64,000 bases of DNA from Aquisediminimonas profunda (lineage in GTDB: Bacteria; Pseudomonadota; Alphaproteobacteria; Sphingomonadales; Sphingomonadaceae). Location: positions 3,282,001-3,346,000 of the forward strand of contig NZ_CP080327.1 in assembly GCF_019443285.1 (NCBI RefSeq), in the 5' to 3' direction. Shown one piece after another: positions 4,023 through 9,288 of this stretch (position 1 is its first letter; every line of letters begins with the position of its first letter). Under the pieces are notes generated by a model. That model searched no databases. It was not told the DNA's origin and worked only from the letters and a program-made list of their open reading frames with translations. Both the position numbers and the translations under genes were made by a program.

Positions 4023-4379
4023 CTATTGGGCCGTTTGCGTTGCGGCAAAATAGTCCGACCTCAAGACTTCCACGTCAGAGAGGAACGTCACGCCTGGCCG
4101 CTTTTCAAACAGCCGCGCAAGTCCGCGCGCGACGTCAATGATCGCCTTTTCGTCAGCGACTCCGACGAACATGACCAGACCGCTCTGGTCGTTGAAGATT
4201 GTCTTGCCCTGATGAAAACCACTGTGCCCCATGCCCGCCACATCGCGGATAATGGTCCAGCCCCCGATACCCGCCGCTTTGAGCAAATCCTCAACCAGAC
4301 CATGGTCTTCGGCGTTCATCACGATCTCGATCTTCTTCAGGCGATGCAGGCTAAGTTCACCATACCGAGTGTTGTTCAT
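4023..4379 (-). CDS. PII-like (cPII-type) signalling protein of the DAB operon
   Basis: This 118-residue protein has the PII signalling fold: LKKIEIVMNAEDHGLVEDLLKAAGIGGWTI matches the start of GlnB/GlnK. The T-loop region instead reads DVAGMGHSGFHQGK and lacks the RGAEY uridylylation motif of true nitrogen PII proteins. PII-like proteins next to carboxysome or bicarbonate-transport genes (cPII family) bind adenine nucleotides and bicarbonate. The gene is the last in dabB-dabA-PII, 17 bases after dabA, with a GAGGA ribosome site before its ATG. I infer that it senses energy or bicarbonate status and modulates DabAB. A plain nitrogen-regulatory role is less likely given the T-loop and context. 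Confidence 0.8.
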   Translation of the reverse strand: MNNTRYGELSLHRLKKIEIVMNAEDHGLVEDLLKAAGIGGWTIIRDVAGMGHSGFHQGKTIFNDQSGLVMFVGVADEKAIIDVARGLARLFEKRPGVTFLSDVEVLRSDYFAATQTAQ

Positions 4380-4396
4380 AACTATTCCTCTTGAGT

Positions 4397-6934
4397 TTAT
4401 AATGATTGATGAGTGGCAGCGGATTCAGAAAGTTCGCAATTCCGGCGCCACCGCAGGGCCTTCCCGGTCTCGGGATCGATCACCACGAGTGAAACCCAAC
4501 CATTTCCGAAAAGTCGTTCAAGGATGTCGTTCGATGCAACAACCGACTCCACCAGATCAAATGGTGCGAGGACAACCGTCAACAGGCGCTGCGGCACGTG
4601 AAATGCGGTGCCATCGTCACCAAACAACGACTGCATCGGCAGGCCAACCTTCAAGTCGCCCCCATTGCCCTGAAGGACGCCAATCCCTCCGACGACATTC
4701 TGCGTGATCTTGTTGCCCGATCCATAACGATCATTGTCGATTGTCGAGAACAGATATTGGCAATTGATCCATTGGGCGACGACCATCGGTGCAGTCAGAA
4801 TTGTGGTCAAGGCTGACCCGTCGGTATCGCTCTGCCAGTCGTAACTATGCAGGAAGGCCCGGCCTTCAAGATCGATGGAGCGCGTCAAGGACCGCGGGCC
4901 GACAATGAAAGCTGCATTTCGTGCGAGCCCCCATTCCGGCCTGACCTCGCCCCAGTGCACCGCACCGGTCAGCACGTCGCTGGCGCTTCGTCCGAGCAGG
5001 ACTGAACGACGCTCCCGATTGGCCGATCCCGCCCTGGCAAGGCTGGTCATCAACGCACTCAGGTCTGGGCGATGACTTTCCGGGATGGTGGCCTGATCGA
5101 ATATGAAAACCTCGTCCGTCGTCGTATTGTGCTCTGCGGCGATGAAGCGGGTGGTGTCAGGAATATTCATCCCCCTTTTCGCCAGTTCGGCGCGCACGTC
5201 CAGATCATTGAGGATGGCCGTCAGGATCCGGGCGTTGGAACCCCCGGCATGGCCACCGCATGCACCGCAATCCAGGGCGGCTGCATAGGGATTATTGACC
5301 GCGCTCCCGCCGTGGCCGACCAGAGCTACAAGTCGCGCCGTGGGCGTCTTCATGCCTGTCAGCTTAAACAGCGCCGTTGCATAGCCGACCTTTTCCTCGA
5401 AGGTAAAAGCAGGGTGCACGCCATGGTCTGCATGTTTCTCGAGAGAAGGCGCGAATGCGTCTTCACGGGGTGGCCTGAGCCGGGACACTGCACGTTCGAC
5501 AAATTTCGGTGCGATCGTATTTGCCGCCATCAGCAGGCCGGCCAACGGGCCGGTAACTTCTGCCGTGGTGAAGGCAGTCGCTGAACCCTGCTTGGCAATA
5601 TCGAACAGGTTTGCGGTGTGCTGTGTCCGCTCCGCATTTTGCTCGACCATTTCCGCCTCACGCTCGCGTCCGACAGCCGGCCCTTCGTCCACATCATGCT
5701 GCGGCGACAACAAAACTGGAAGGAGACGGGTCCGACGGCTCTTGCCGACCTTGTGGAGTGCGATCGGCAAGCCAAAGAAGCCAGCGTAGCCGAACGTCTC
5801 ATAGCGCCCCTCAGCTTCCAGCGCTCGCCGAAATGATTCCGAACGCACGTCGATACAGAAGACCAGCTGGGCCTCCGCAACCTCATCTGAACCCGGTGCG
5901 TCCGCTGCAGCCCGAAGCTGCGGCACGACCGCGTTGCGGTATGATGTTTCAGCTGCAAGCATGAACATCCTGCCAAGCTTGCCTTCATCAAGATTTGCAA
6001 TCTCGTTGAAATGGCGGCGTCCAGCTTCGTGCGCATTTTCAAGAATGTCACTCGTCAGGTTGAACCGCTCCGCCAGTTGGGCCGAGACATCGGAAGGCGC
6101 AGTGCGAGCCTCGCCTGTCGAGATGGCACCACTGCGGTCCAGAAGCATCCACAGGGCCAACAGGTCAGCCATGCCTGCAGGTGCACCCGCCGCATATTCT
6201 GGGTCGGCATGTTCGTTGCGCCAACGGATGTGCCCCGCCCAACCGGGCAGCCGGGCCACATATCCTGCAAGCAGATCCTCCTCCTCGCCATGGCAGATGC
6301 CAAGGGCTGCGAAACCTTCGGCAATGGCCTCAAGCGGATCCCGCGGGATGCTGAGAAGAAGCTTCTGACCGACATCTCCCGTCAATCTGCGGAATTCGGA
6401 GTCATGCCCAGCTATCGCCAGTACCGACCGATAGAATCCCAACCCGCGATTGGGCATCGGGCTCGCCGCCCGACCCTGATCGAAAAAGGCGGCACACCAT
6501 TTGGCAATGAAGTCCGCATCGGGAGACAACATCGCTGGCCTTGTCACACCCGCACCGACCGGCAAATCAAGCAGACGCGCCATCAACAAATCCAGCCGCG
6601 AGACGTCTGGGCCGATCAATTCAAAAGCAGAATTCAAGCCGCCCAATTCCTGGATTGCAACGTCGCGCAGAACCTTTTGATCAATGCTGCCGGCCCGAAG
6701 AAGCGTGCGCCATTGATCAACGGGCAAGTTCTCGCGCGCAGAGAAGCGCTGCGCGGCCGCACTGACCGCCTGTTCGAACGGCAACTCTTCGAACCCGGCA
6801 AGGGGATTGACCGCAATGGCGCTTTCCAATGGCCAGATTGGCGGGACCGTTCGAGCAGCGAGAGAAACCAGACCTGCAACTTCTGTTCGCGTCAGAACCG
6901 GCTCAACGATCGCTATAGGTGCCATCATGTTCAT
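4397..6934 (-). CDS. dabA: DabA, inorganic carbon accumulation subunit (DUF2309)
   Basis: An 845-residue DabA, the beta-carbonic-anhydrase-like cytoplasmic subunit of the DAB complex, which hydrates CO2 to bicarbonate vectorially. Expected zinc and active-site residues are visible: C360 and D362 in LVFCIDVRSE, H541 in LVGHGG and C556 in LDCGACGGH. The C-x-D pair and the 15-residue H-to-C spacing match characterised DabA. The longer frame open back to 8356 reads through dabB in the wrong frame; the real start is the ATG at 6934, which overlaps the dabB stop by 4 bases (ATGA), indicating translational coupling. Partners are DabB upstream and a PII-like protein downstream. The family is best known from autotrophs but also occurs in heterotrophs, where it supplies bicarbonate for anaplerotic carboxylation. 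Confidence 0.93.
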   Translation of the reverse strand: MNMMAPIAIVEPVLTRTEVAGLVSLAARTVPPIWPLESAIAVNPLAGFEELPFEQAVSAAAQRFSARENLPVDQWRTLLRAGSIDQKVLRDVAIQELGGLNSAFELIGPDVSRLDLLMARLLDLPVGAGVTRPAMLSPDADFIAKWCAAFFDQGRAASPMPNRGLGFYRSVLAIAGHDSEFRRLTGDVGQKLLLSIPRDPLEAIAEGFAALGICHGEEEDLLAGYVARLPGWAGHIRWRNEHADPEYAAGAPAGMADLLALWMLLDRSGAISTGEARTAPSDVSAQLAERFNLTSDILENAHEAGRRHFNEIANLDEGKLGRMFMLAAETSYRNAVVPQLRAAADAPGSDEVAEAQLVFCIDVRSESFRRALEAEGRYETFGYAGFFGLPIALHKVGKSRRTRLLPVLLSPQHDVDEGPAVGREREAEMVEQNAERTQHTANLFDIAKQGSATAFTTAEVTGPLAGLLMAANTIAPKFVERAVSRLRPPREDAFAPSLEKHADHGVHPAFTFEEKVGYATALFKLTGMKTPTARLVALVGHGGSAVNNPYAAALDCGACGGHAGGSNARILTAILNDLDVRAELAKRGMNIPDTTRFIAAEHNTTTDEVFIFDQATIPESHRPDLSALMTSLARAGSANRERRSVLLGRSASDVLTGAVHWGEVRPEWGLARNAAFIVGPRSLTRSIDLEGRAFLHSYDWQSDTDGSALTTILTAPMVVAQWINCQYLFSTIDNDRYGSGNKITQNVVGGIGVLQGNGGDLKVGLPMQSLFGDDGTAFHVPQRLLTVVLAPFDLVESVVASNDILERLFGNGWVSLVVIDPETGKALRWRRNCELSESAATHQSL

Positions 6935-8313
6935 GCTGCTTCTCCCTTTCTGGTCGCCTTCAAGGCGCCGGCATTGATGAGGTGGACGAAGAGGCGCGCA
7001 GGAAGGCCCGCCCCGGACAAGAGGCGATGTTGCTGCCAGACCCAGCAACCGAGAAACGTTGCCAGCAAGGCAAGCAGAGCCCAGTTTGGTACCAGCGCCT
7101 GCGCGTCGGCGCCGACCGCCGAATGGGCAATGGAAAGTCCGACGGTATGGAATGCGGCCAAGGCGGCCATGAGCAGCAGGAACGACAGCTTTGTCCTCAA
7201 TGAGGACACGCTGCCCAGGCAGGCAATCATCGTCGCCATGGCAGTTGCCATGCCAAGCAGCAGGGGCACCAGGCTTGCACTGCCATTCCCGACGACCAGG
7301 TATGAGACGGCAATGCAAAGTGTGCCAATTGCGATTGCGGCCGTCGCTGCGTTCGACAGGGACCCACGCTGGCTTTCGCTCTTCATGCCGATTGCCGAAC
7401 CGGATCCAAGGAACAGCCAGGCCTTGAACAGACCGTGCGCAACTATGTGCCATAGCGCGGCCGCATAGGCGCCCAGGCCGCAACTCATGATCATGAAGCC
7501 CATCTGAGATACCGTCGAACCCGCGAGTGTCCGCTTGATGTCTGTCCGGACCATCATGATTCCGAGCCCGTAGATCGCTGCGAAAAGGCCAATCGCGATC
7601 GTGACAATTCGGGCAGACGGTGCAGCTTCCAGCAGAGGGGCAAAGCGGATCAACAGGAAGCCGCCCGCATTCACCAGCCCTGCATGCATGAGGGCGGAGA
7701 CCGGTGTCGGCGCACTCATCGAGGAGAGCAGCCAGCCGGAGAACGGAGGCAAGGCGCAGCGGGCAGCAGCCGCGATGACGAGCAAGAGCGCTGCCGCTGT
7801 CGCCAGCGGCGCAGGGATCTCGGAAACGGTGGACAGCACCACCTCGAGCTGCAGCGTGCCTGCTTGCCAGCCAAGAATGGACAGCGCCGCAACAAGTGAA
7901 ACGTCGCCTATCGCGAAAGCGAGCTGGGTGCGCCGCTTTGCCGCCAAGGCTTCGTCCCAGTCTGCGCAATGGCCAACCAGTTTTGCAAGCAGCACGCTGC
8001 TGGTGCACCAGGCCAACGCGAGGATCAAAAGATTGGCGCTGAATACAGTGATCAAGACGCTCGCGACCAACAACCCAAGCATAAGGAAAAACCGCGTCGA
8101 GCGCTGATCGGAACGCATGTACCTCGAGGAGAAGGACGAGACGATCGCGCCTACAAAGAGCGTGAGCATTCCGATCGACAATGAAACGCCGATTTCTTTT
8201 CCGAGCGACGGAAAAGCGAACATCCAAGCCACAGAGGCTGCCAAACCTGCCCAAAGCACGCACGAAATCATGAGGCCTGTCGAGACTGTTTGCTGAAATC
8301 TTGAATGCTGCAT
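6931..8313 (-). CDS. dabB: DabB, NuoL/MrpA-like membrane subunit of the DAB complex
   Basis: A 460-residue polytopic membrane protein of the proton-conducting antiporter family (NADH dehydrogenase subunit 5 / Mrp-like). The most conserved region is visible: APTPVSALMHAGLVNAGG followed later by MMVRTDIKRTLAGSTVSQMGFM, with HIVAHGLFKAWLFL carrying the usual His/Lys of the family. In DAB systems DabB is thought to couple cation flow to CO2 hydration by DabA. It is the first gene of the minus-strand operon, has a strong AAGGGGA ribosome site, and its TGA overlaps the dabA ATG. There are no other respiratory complex I genes nearby, which argues against a nuo role. Confidence 0.92.
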   Translation of the reverse strand: MQHSRFQQTVSTGLMISCVLWAGLAASVAWMFAFPSLGKEIGVSLSIGMLTLFVGAIVSSFSSRYMRSDQRSTRFFLMLGLLVASVLITVFSANLLILALAWCTSSVLLAKLVGHCADWDEALAAKRRTQLAFAIGDVSLVAALSILGWQAGTLQLEVVLSTVSEIPAPLATAAALLLVIAAAARCALPPFSGWLLSSMSAPTPVSALMHAGLVNAGGFLLIRFAPLLEAAPSARIVTIAIGLFAAIYGLGIMMVRTDIKRTLAGSTVSQMGFMIMSCGLGAYAAALWHIVAHGLFKAWLFLGSGSAIGMKSESQRGSLSNAATAAIAIGTLCIAVSYLVVGNGSASLVPLLLGMATAMATMIACLGSVSSLRTKLSFLLLMAALAAFHTVGLSIAHSAVGADAQALVPNWALLALLATFLGCWVWQQHRLLSGAGLPARLFVHLINAGALKATRKGEAA

Positions 8314-8421
8314 GGGGATCCCCTTTCGGGAATCGCACTAGCGGCAGCAGTATCATTGATAAAACGAGTTATTCAAATATCAAACATTGACAAATGAAAT
8401 GACTAATGCTGGAATGACAGG
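8314..8421. promoter_or_regulatory. Divergent dabB/lysR intergenic region with candidate LysR operator
   Basis: This 108-base spacer separates dabB from the divergent LysR gene. It holds an 11-base palindrome TATCATTGATA (8351-8361) and a further half-site TATCAA (8378-8383) that pairs with TTGATA (8356-8361). Such AT-rich dyads between a LysR gene and its divergent target are the usual place for the regulator to bind. A TTGACA lies at 8387-8392 but I see no convincing -10 partner. Confidence 0.5.
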
Positions 8422-9288
8422 ATGCCAACAATCAAGACACTGGATCTCGACCTTCTTCGCTCCTTTGTTTCCATTGTCGAAACCGGAAGTTTTACGCGTG
8501 CGGGGGATCGTTTGGGGAGAACGCAATCGACGATCAGTTTGCAGGTCAAGCGGCTTGAAGACCAGATTGGGCGTGCCGTCTTCCTTCGAACGCCGAGATC
8601 ATTGAGCCTCACTCCCGAAGGGGAACGCTTGCTTGGGCCCGCCCGGCAGATGCTTCGCGTCAACGATGCAGCGATCGCAGAGCTCTTCGAGCCAACCATG
8701 ACCGGGCAGGTTCGGCTTGGCGTGCCGGAGGATTTTGCCACGGCCCACCTGCCCTCCGTGCTTGCCGCCTTTGCGGAAGCGCACCCCTTGGTTGAACTCG
8801 CTGTCACATGCGACCTTACACTCAATCTGCTCGACAGTTTTCACGACGGCGCATTCGATCTTGTGCTGATAAAGCGGGAACCTTCAGCCCCCCTTGAAGG
8901 CGTGCGGGTCTGGCGGGAGCCGCTGGTCTGGGTGGCACGCGATCCGCTGGCGGCAGAGGGGCTCGAGACAGTGCCGCTGATTGTCTCACCCGAGCCGTGC
9001 GTTTATCGCAAGAGGGCAATTGCTGCGCTCGATGCCATCGGTCGAAAATGGCGCGTGGCCTATACTTCGACCAGCCTTGCGGGCAGTCAATCGGCCGTCA
9101 ATGCTGGCCTCGGGATCACGGTGCTACCGCGCGAAATGGTGCCGCCCTATCTGACGCCGATTGTCGACAACCCCGGATTGCCCTCCCTGTATGATACGGA
9201 AATCGCGCTGATCGAAGCGCCCGGACTTTCTCAGACTGCCCATCGCCTTGCCCAACATATCGTCGCGGCGCTTGAGCGGGGCGCATGA
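8422..9288 (+). CDS. LysR-family regulator divergent from the DAB operon
   Basis: A 288-residue LysR-type regulator. The N-terminal winged helix-turn-helix is clear (LDLDLLRSFVSIVETGSFTRAGDRLGRTQSTISLQVKRLE, read in two halves around residue 20), followed by a substrate-binding domain from about residue 90. Divergent placement from dabB with a palindromic spacer suggests that it controls the DAB operon in response to carbon supply or metabolism, as LysR regulators do next to other DAB loci. It was chosen to start at 8422 because the HTH begins normally from there and a weak GGAATGACAGGA site precedes it. The effector is unknown. Confidence 0.85.
   Translation: MPTIKTLDLDLLRSFVSIVETGSFTRAGDRLGRTQSTISLQVKRLEDQIGRAVFLRTPRSLSLTPEGERLLGPARQMLRVNDAAIAELFEPTMTGQVRLGVPEDFATAHLPSVLAAFAEAHPLVELAVTCDLTLNLLDSFHDGAFDLVLIKREPSAPLEGVRVWREPLVWVARDPLAAEGLETVPLIVSPEPCVYRKRAIAALDAIGRKWRVAYTSTSLAGSQSAVNAGLGITVLPREMVPPYLTPIVDNPGLPSLYDTEIALIEAPGLSQTAHRLAQHIVAALERGA

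Follow-up and report, generated by a model that had tools for sequence, protein, structure and literature searches.

A DAB locus is located at positions 4023-9288 of the window, by which we mean the whole stretch of 64,000 nucleotides of Aquisediminimonas profunda DNA that was analyzed. Gene calls and Pfam matches bore out the layout described in an earlier note on this DNA, with dabB, dabA and a gene for a PII-like protein on the minus strand and a LysR gene divergent to them:

6931-8313, minus strand: dabB, 460 aa; membrane subunit, NuoL/MrpA-like proton channel (Pfam PF00361 Proton_antipo_M, E 3.4e-37)
4397-6934, minus strand: dabA, 845 aa; beta-CA-like zinc subunit (PF10070, 762 bits, profile 2-747)
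4023-4379, minus strand: PII-like gene, predicted CPII type, 118 aa (PF00543, 59 bits)
8422-9288, plus strand: lysR, divergent regulator, 288 aa; HTH_1 and LysR_substrate domains
8314-8421, no strand: dabB-lysR intergenic region; a block at about 8355-8401 is conserved and may hold a LysR operator and promoters

The dabB and dabA genes overlap by 4 nt (dabA starts at 6934 and the dabB stop ends at 6931), and 17 nt separate the dabA stop from the start of the PII-like gene. A dabB-dabA fusion was rejected, since the 1319-aa ORF found here is the dabA frame staying open through dabB. When the intergenic region of the window was aligned with that of eight close relatives, the mean identity was 71% and the blocks AAAC.A.TT and CATTGAC were invariant. 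Judged from this alignment, the block at about 8355-8401 is a candidate LysR operator that would overlap both promoters. Elsewhere in the window, a big repetitive ORF on the minus strand (2-1855) reaches the window edge and carries PATR autotransporter repeats (PF12951).

The DabA and DabB subunits

The two-subunit DAB2 of Halothiobacillus neapolitanus (PDB 9rd0) was used for comparison. DabA is homologous to DabA2 (9rd0_A) over its full length (phmmer E 2e-107, residues 3-805 of the 829-residue query aligned), and the catalytic residues are identical. The zinc and active-site residues pointed out earlier, C360, D362, H541 and C556, proved exact with the dabA start at 6934, including the H-to-C spacing of 15. 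DabA therewith has the Cys2His zinc site (C360, H541, C556) and, with R364, the Asp-Arg dyad (D362, R364). It also keeps the water-binding His/Asp pair H602/D607 and L670, the Leu that replaces the Gln/His of beta-CA. The finger-motif residue E459 aligns with E444 of DabA2, and a Glu is found at this position in 96 of 100 aligned DabA rows. C360, D362, R364, H541, C556 and H602 were identical in all 100 rows and are therefore a mark of the family that does not distinguish the present locus. The three actinobacterial rows inspected read CIDTRSE where the pattern is CIDVRSE, the C, D and R being present in 100 of 100 rows.

DabB matched DabB2 (9rd0_B) with an E of 3e-38, query residues 41-447 aligning with residues 89-511 of the chain. 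Seven proton-path residues of DabB2, S256, H260, K310, S316, H339, H343 and K347, correspond to S206, H210, K260, S266, H289, H293 and K297 of the present protein (hand count from the alignment), and all seven positions were invariant across 32 aligned DabB sequences. These are the DabB2 residues that were mutated in PMC13144422. Unlike the proton path, two ion-pair positions differ, with A134 facing R182 of DabB2 and R185 facing K235; an R182 to A mutant of DabB2 lost yield (PMC13144422). In the predicted structure (pLDDT 87.8), 14 helices of membrane length were counted by hand, compared to 15 in DabB2 (PMC13144422). DabB is shorter than DabB2 at the N terminus, probably by one helix. Among the 50 matches listed in the fold search, most were NuoL-type subunits of complex I.

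The PII-like protein and the gene neighborhoods of relatives

Canonical PII proteins (GlnB/GlnK) are marked by a long T-loop with a modified tyrosine and by a GxGKIF stretch. The PII-like protein shares the PF00543 fold family with GlnB/GlnK and is the third PII of its genome, two canonical PII genes being located elsewhere. Aligned with these two, which keep both features, it was found to lack the T-loop, GRQKGHTELYRGAEY, as well as a GxGKIF-type stretch. A short loop, GMGHSGFHQGK, is found where the T-loop would be, and the C terminus carries RSDYF. With the motifs missing and two canonical PII genes present, the possibility that the protein is an ordinary nitrogen regulator was rejected.

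A search of PDB sequences at E<=0.1 returned two matches only, both CPII (5d4l and 5d4n, E 3e-16). Foldseek with the predicted model placed CPII structures at ranks 1-14, several of them with ADP, AMP or bicarbonate, while a Thermus PII-like protein and SbtB ranked below CPII. The pLDDT of the model was 82.7, falling to about 60-67 in the loop region. The NCBIfam PG0541-family model gave 26.4 bits, which is below its 45-bit cut-off. By sequence and predicted fold the protein is of the CPII type, closer to CPII than to GlnB/GlnK.

The CPII of Thiomonas intermedia, which Wheatley reportedly described in 2016 as a carboxysome-associated PII-like protein, also has a short loop in place of the T-loop, and its residues at G49, G51, G54, G58, F62, N63 and R107 are kept. 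It differs in having S and Y opposite H52 and H56, and the present genome is without RuBisCO. The suggestion in the earlier note that the PII-like protein ties DAB to the energy state of the cell would fit this resemblance to CPII.

Invariant positions in 38 aligned PII-like proteins were E18, G40, G49, G51, G54, F62, L68, V74, G96, V97, F99, V105, R107 and F111. All 21 sphingomonad proteins carry the motif GxGHxGxH[QE], as do 27 of the 35 actinobacterial ones, with R for the second H in the remaining eight; C-terminal RxxYF was found in all 21 and all 35. Neither motif was complete in the PII-like protein of L192, a locus from a genome with RuBisCO (G461).

Relatives of the locus were picked by likeness to its DabA, so the following shares are not population figures. 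Within this DAB clade, 35 named sphingomonad loci were compared. A close LysR relative diverged from dabB in 33 of them, and contig ends cut the remaining two. A PII gene lay directly 3' of dabA in 19 of the 35; it was missing from 15, and one locus was cut by a contig end. The corresponding number for the named actinobacterial loci was 36 of 40, with one locus lacking the gene and three cut (one with a partial PII). L063 yielded no more than part of a PII gene, at the end of its contig, and was left out of the count. The LysR of the present locus had no match in the 40 named actinobacterial loci, several of which were cut upstream.

In a panel of 396 genomes from the order, 10 of 49 DABs belonged to the same clade and six of these had PII. 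The other 39 (L114-L152) belonged to a second, more distant DAB type, which is thus commoner than the present one, and no PII was found at these 39 loci, one of which was cut 0.5 kb downstream. Twelve of the 39 had a different divergent LysR that matched the present LysR weakly (about 42-46 bits). In the phylum panel 68 genomes were examined for PII near DabA, with 4 kb taken per locus, and two had it, the present one and G461; several loci were cut by contig ends, and a PII gene past a downstream dabB could fall outside. In L192 of G461 the PII gene starts about 50 nt past the end of the dabA frame.

A DabA tree was built from 100 chosen rows by a quick method (LG+G4 without mixture), and L031 was excluded since its dabA sits in two frames. 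The sphingomonad clade had a support of 100 and comprised 36 rows, 21 with PII, 14 without and one for which this is unknown; the deep split between sphingomonad and actinobacterial PII-carrying DABs was not resolved. Accounting for the PII label takes four changes over the whole tree. Together with the 15 clade loci that lack the gene, these changes indicate that PII is not required for DAB. DabA and PII distances correlated with an r of 0.90 in the sphingomonad group and likewise in the actinobacterial group, an agreement that speaks for shared descent only.

RuBisCO and carbonic anhydrase in DAB-carrying genomes

The genome is a single contig of 3,406,525 bases with a completeness of 100. 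The absence of RuBisCO that the earlier note had reported for the window holds genome-wide: PF00016 gave 0 matches to the RuBisCO large subunit, the sole Calvin cycle marker covered by this search for rbcL. The term non-autotroph is therefore valid for the Calvin cycle, and the association of CPII-type proteins with carboxysomes and RuBisCO was not seen in this genome. A complete DAB in a non-autotroph, as claimed, was thereby found; the rarity which that claim implied was not. Of 69 DabA carriers in the phylum panel (398 genomes), 63 lacked a RuBisCO match and six had one; in the order panel (396 genomes) the numbers were 47 and two of 49 carriers. The 69 include G647, which fell below the cut-off; 67 of them were covered by one RuBisCO search and the present genome and G065 by another, without a match in either of the two. 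All these counts come from one Pfam model, PF00016, which also matches the Bacillus subtilis control; RuBisCO-like proteins are therefore counted, and RuBisCO can only be overstated. Since the panels share genomes (the L016 stretch is identical to that of G311, and the L029 stretch to that of G175), the tallies must not be summed. The DAB family has been found in heterotrophs before (PMC13144422; PMC10880623). DAB is accordingly no pointer to autotrophy, and in the panels searched most DAB carriers had no RuBisCO match.

The same was found for PII-linked DABs. Genomes for 50 of the 55 named PII-positive loci were searched, and 44 had no RuBisCO match; the completeness of these genomes is not given, and RuBisCO could have been missed in the MAGs among them. 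A match was found in one of 19 sphingomonad and five of 31 actinobacterial genomes. We considered whether the locus could be part of another autotrophic programme, either a different CO2-fixation pathway or a Calvin cycle recently lost, as might be imagined for a CPII-type PII, a type reportedly found first in the setting of carboxysomes. Judged by RuBisCO, the one fixation marker searched, which is missing from this complete genome and gave no match in 18 of the 19 PII-carrying sphingomonad relatives searched, we find this highly improbable.

The earlier note had also proposed a search for carbonic anhydrases. A profile search covering the beta and alpha classes identified one beta-CA and no alpha-CA in the genome. 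The beta-CA contains CxDxR and HxxC (by eye) and looks intact. DAB is therefore not the only bicarbonate route of the genome, and DAB as sole bicarbonate source was rejected. For PEP carboxylase the match was weak and partial (54.9 bits, profile 373-623) and fell in a 926-aa ORF (L162, 331-3111, minus strand), which by its sequence may be a divergent PEPC or a PEPC-like protein.

The presence of beta-CA raises the possibility that DAB is redundant, with beta-CA doing the work and DAB kept as a backup for high pH, biofilm or low CO2, or as a laterally acquired spare. Of the 396 genomes from the order, 380 have a beta-CA, as do 47 of the 49 that carry DabA. DabA itself is patchy (49 of 396) and missing from G059, the only other genome of the same genus in the panel. 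Within the family code of the present genome, on the other hand, beta-CA was missing in only two of 313 genomes (hand count). These are G175 and G276; each of them carries DabA, which is found in 45 of the 313 (Fisher one-sided p 0.020, n=2). No enrichment was seen over the whole order, where DabA was present in two of 16 genomes without beta-CA and 47 of 380 with it (p 0.61). We regard the backup role as a possibility of some weight that falls short of being likely.

G175 has a PII-linked DAB (L161), in a stretch identical to part of the named locus L029 of Erythrobacteraceae bacterium CFH 75059, while the DAB of G276 (L120) is of the second type. These two genomes hint at an ability of DAB to take the place of beta-CA, and in exchange experiments the Staphylococcus aureus homologue MpsAB was able to replace carbonic anhydrase (PMC6689103). 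Clade-wide replacement of beta-CA by DAB was rejected, as it would rest on n=2 and the whole order is without enrichment.

Proposed function and relation to earlier reports

The locus is a real, complete and ordinary DAB operon with a dedicated CPII-like partner. In our judgement it probably encodes a DAB (DAC/MpsAB-family) system of the ordinary kind, that is, a PMF-driven CO2 hydrator with CPII-like adenylate/bicarbonate gating in a sphingomonad that lacks RuBisCO. The likeness of DabA and DabB to DAB2 suggests that the system should work like DAB2. Protons would pass through the NuoL-like channel of DabB, completed by the finger helix of DabA, and their flow would drive CO2 hydration in one direction only at the zinc site of DabA. 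Bicarbonate in the cytosol would rise as a result and feed carboxylases that are not RuBisCO; anaplerotic bicarbonate supply in non-autotrophs is the published explanation for MpsAB (PMC6689103). The CPII-type protein probably binds adenylates, perhaps together with bicarbonate, and may tune DAB to low energy or to a plentiful supply of bicarbonate. LysR is probably the regulator of transcription from the intergenic region between its gene and dabB. For this locus we infer the activity, the ion, the PII ligand, the PII target and the role of LysR. The beta-CA, the weak PEPC match, the lack of PII in 15 of the 35 clade loci and the two changed ion-pair positions of DabB are points against the proposal.

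Proton rather than sodium coupling is carried over from DAB2, which showed no dependence on sodium (PMC13144422). For the S. aureus homologue, a sodium-bicarbonate symporter has been put forward instead of a proton-driven CO2 hydrator (PMC6689103; PMC13144422); in such a mode the zinc site would have a part in handling bicarbonate. Sequence alone cannot tell the ions apart; the catalytic Zn, Asp-Arg and finger Glu residues are all retained here, and we consider a MpsAB-like mode of this kind unlikely. MpsAB resembles the present system in being a DAB homologue from a non-autotroph, and it complements CA-deficient Escherichia coli (PMC6689103). It differs in that S. aureus is listed as being without CA, whereas beta-CA is present here, and in that the present locus has PII, a term with 0 occurrences in the available text of PMC6689103. 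Compared to DAB2, the PMF-driven hydrator proposed here has PII and LysR attached and resides in a genome without RuBisCO.

Already in print are anaplerosis as the role of the homologue MpsAB in non-autotrophs (PMC6689103) and PII or LysR beside the gene pair (PMC5700660; PMC4633670). A PII/SbtB homologue after DUF2309 was reported in 2015 for the carboxysome region of H. neapolitanus (PMC4633670). The COGNAT paper of 2017 (PMC5700660) described the ybcC/COG3002 pair with LysR at the 5' end (clade A) or PII at the 3' end (clade B). Gene order and the two accessory genes are the same here, but where that text gives LysR or PII, the present locus and 19 of the 35 clade loci have PII, plus LysR where the contig reaches. 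In the literature searched, as far as its text was available, we found no earlier report of joint LysR and PII in one clade or of a RuBisCO-free majority among PII-linked DABs. These two observations are a modest extension of the prior reports.

It is conceivable, and we put it forward tentatively as somewhat doubtful, that the PII-like proteins linked to DAB make up a family of the CPII type (GxGHxGx[HR], C-terminal RxxYF) with its main home in RuBisCO-free bacteria. There they would sense adenylates and bicarbonate and serve as valves on a CO2 hydrator that spends PMF, and the CPII of carboxysomes would be an offshoot of this family. How futile cycling is avoided is a key question for the DAB family (PMC13144422). 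If the PII-like protein gates DAB, this bears on how a PMF-spending pump avoids such cycling; the bearing of the locus on DAB regulation is modest. The sphingomonad and mycobacterial operons would, if this is true, be handy three-gene test cases for PII gating of DAB.
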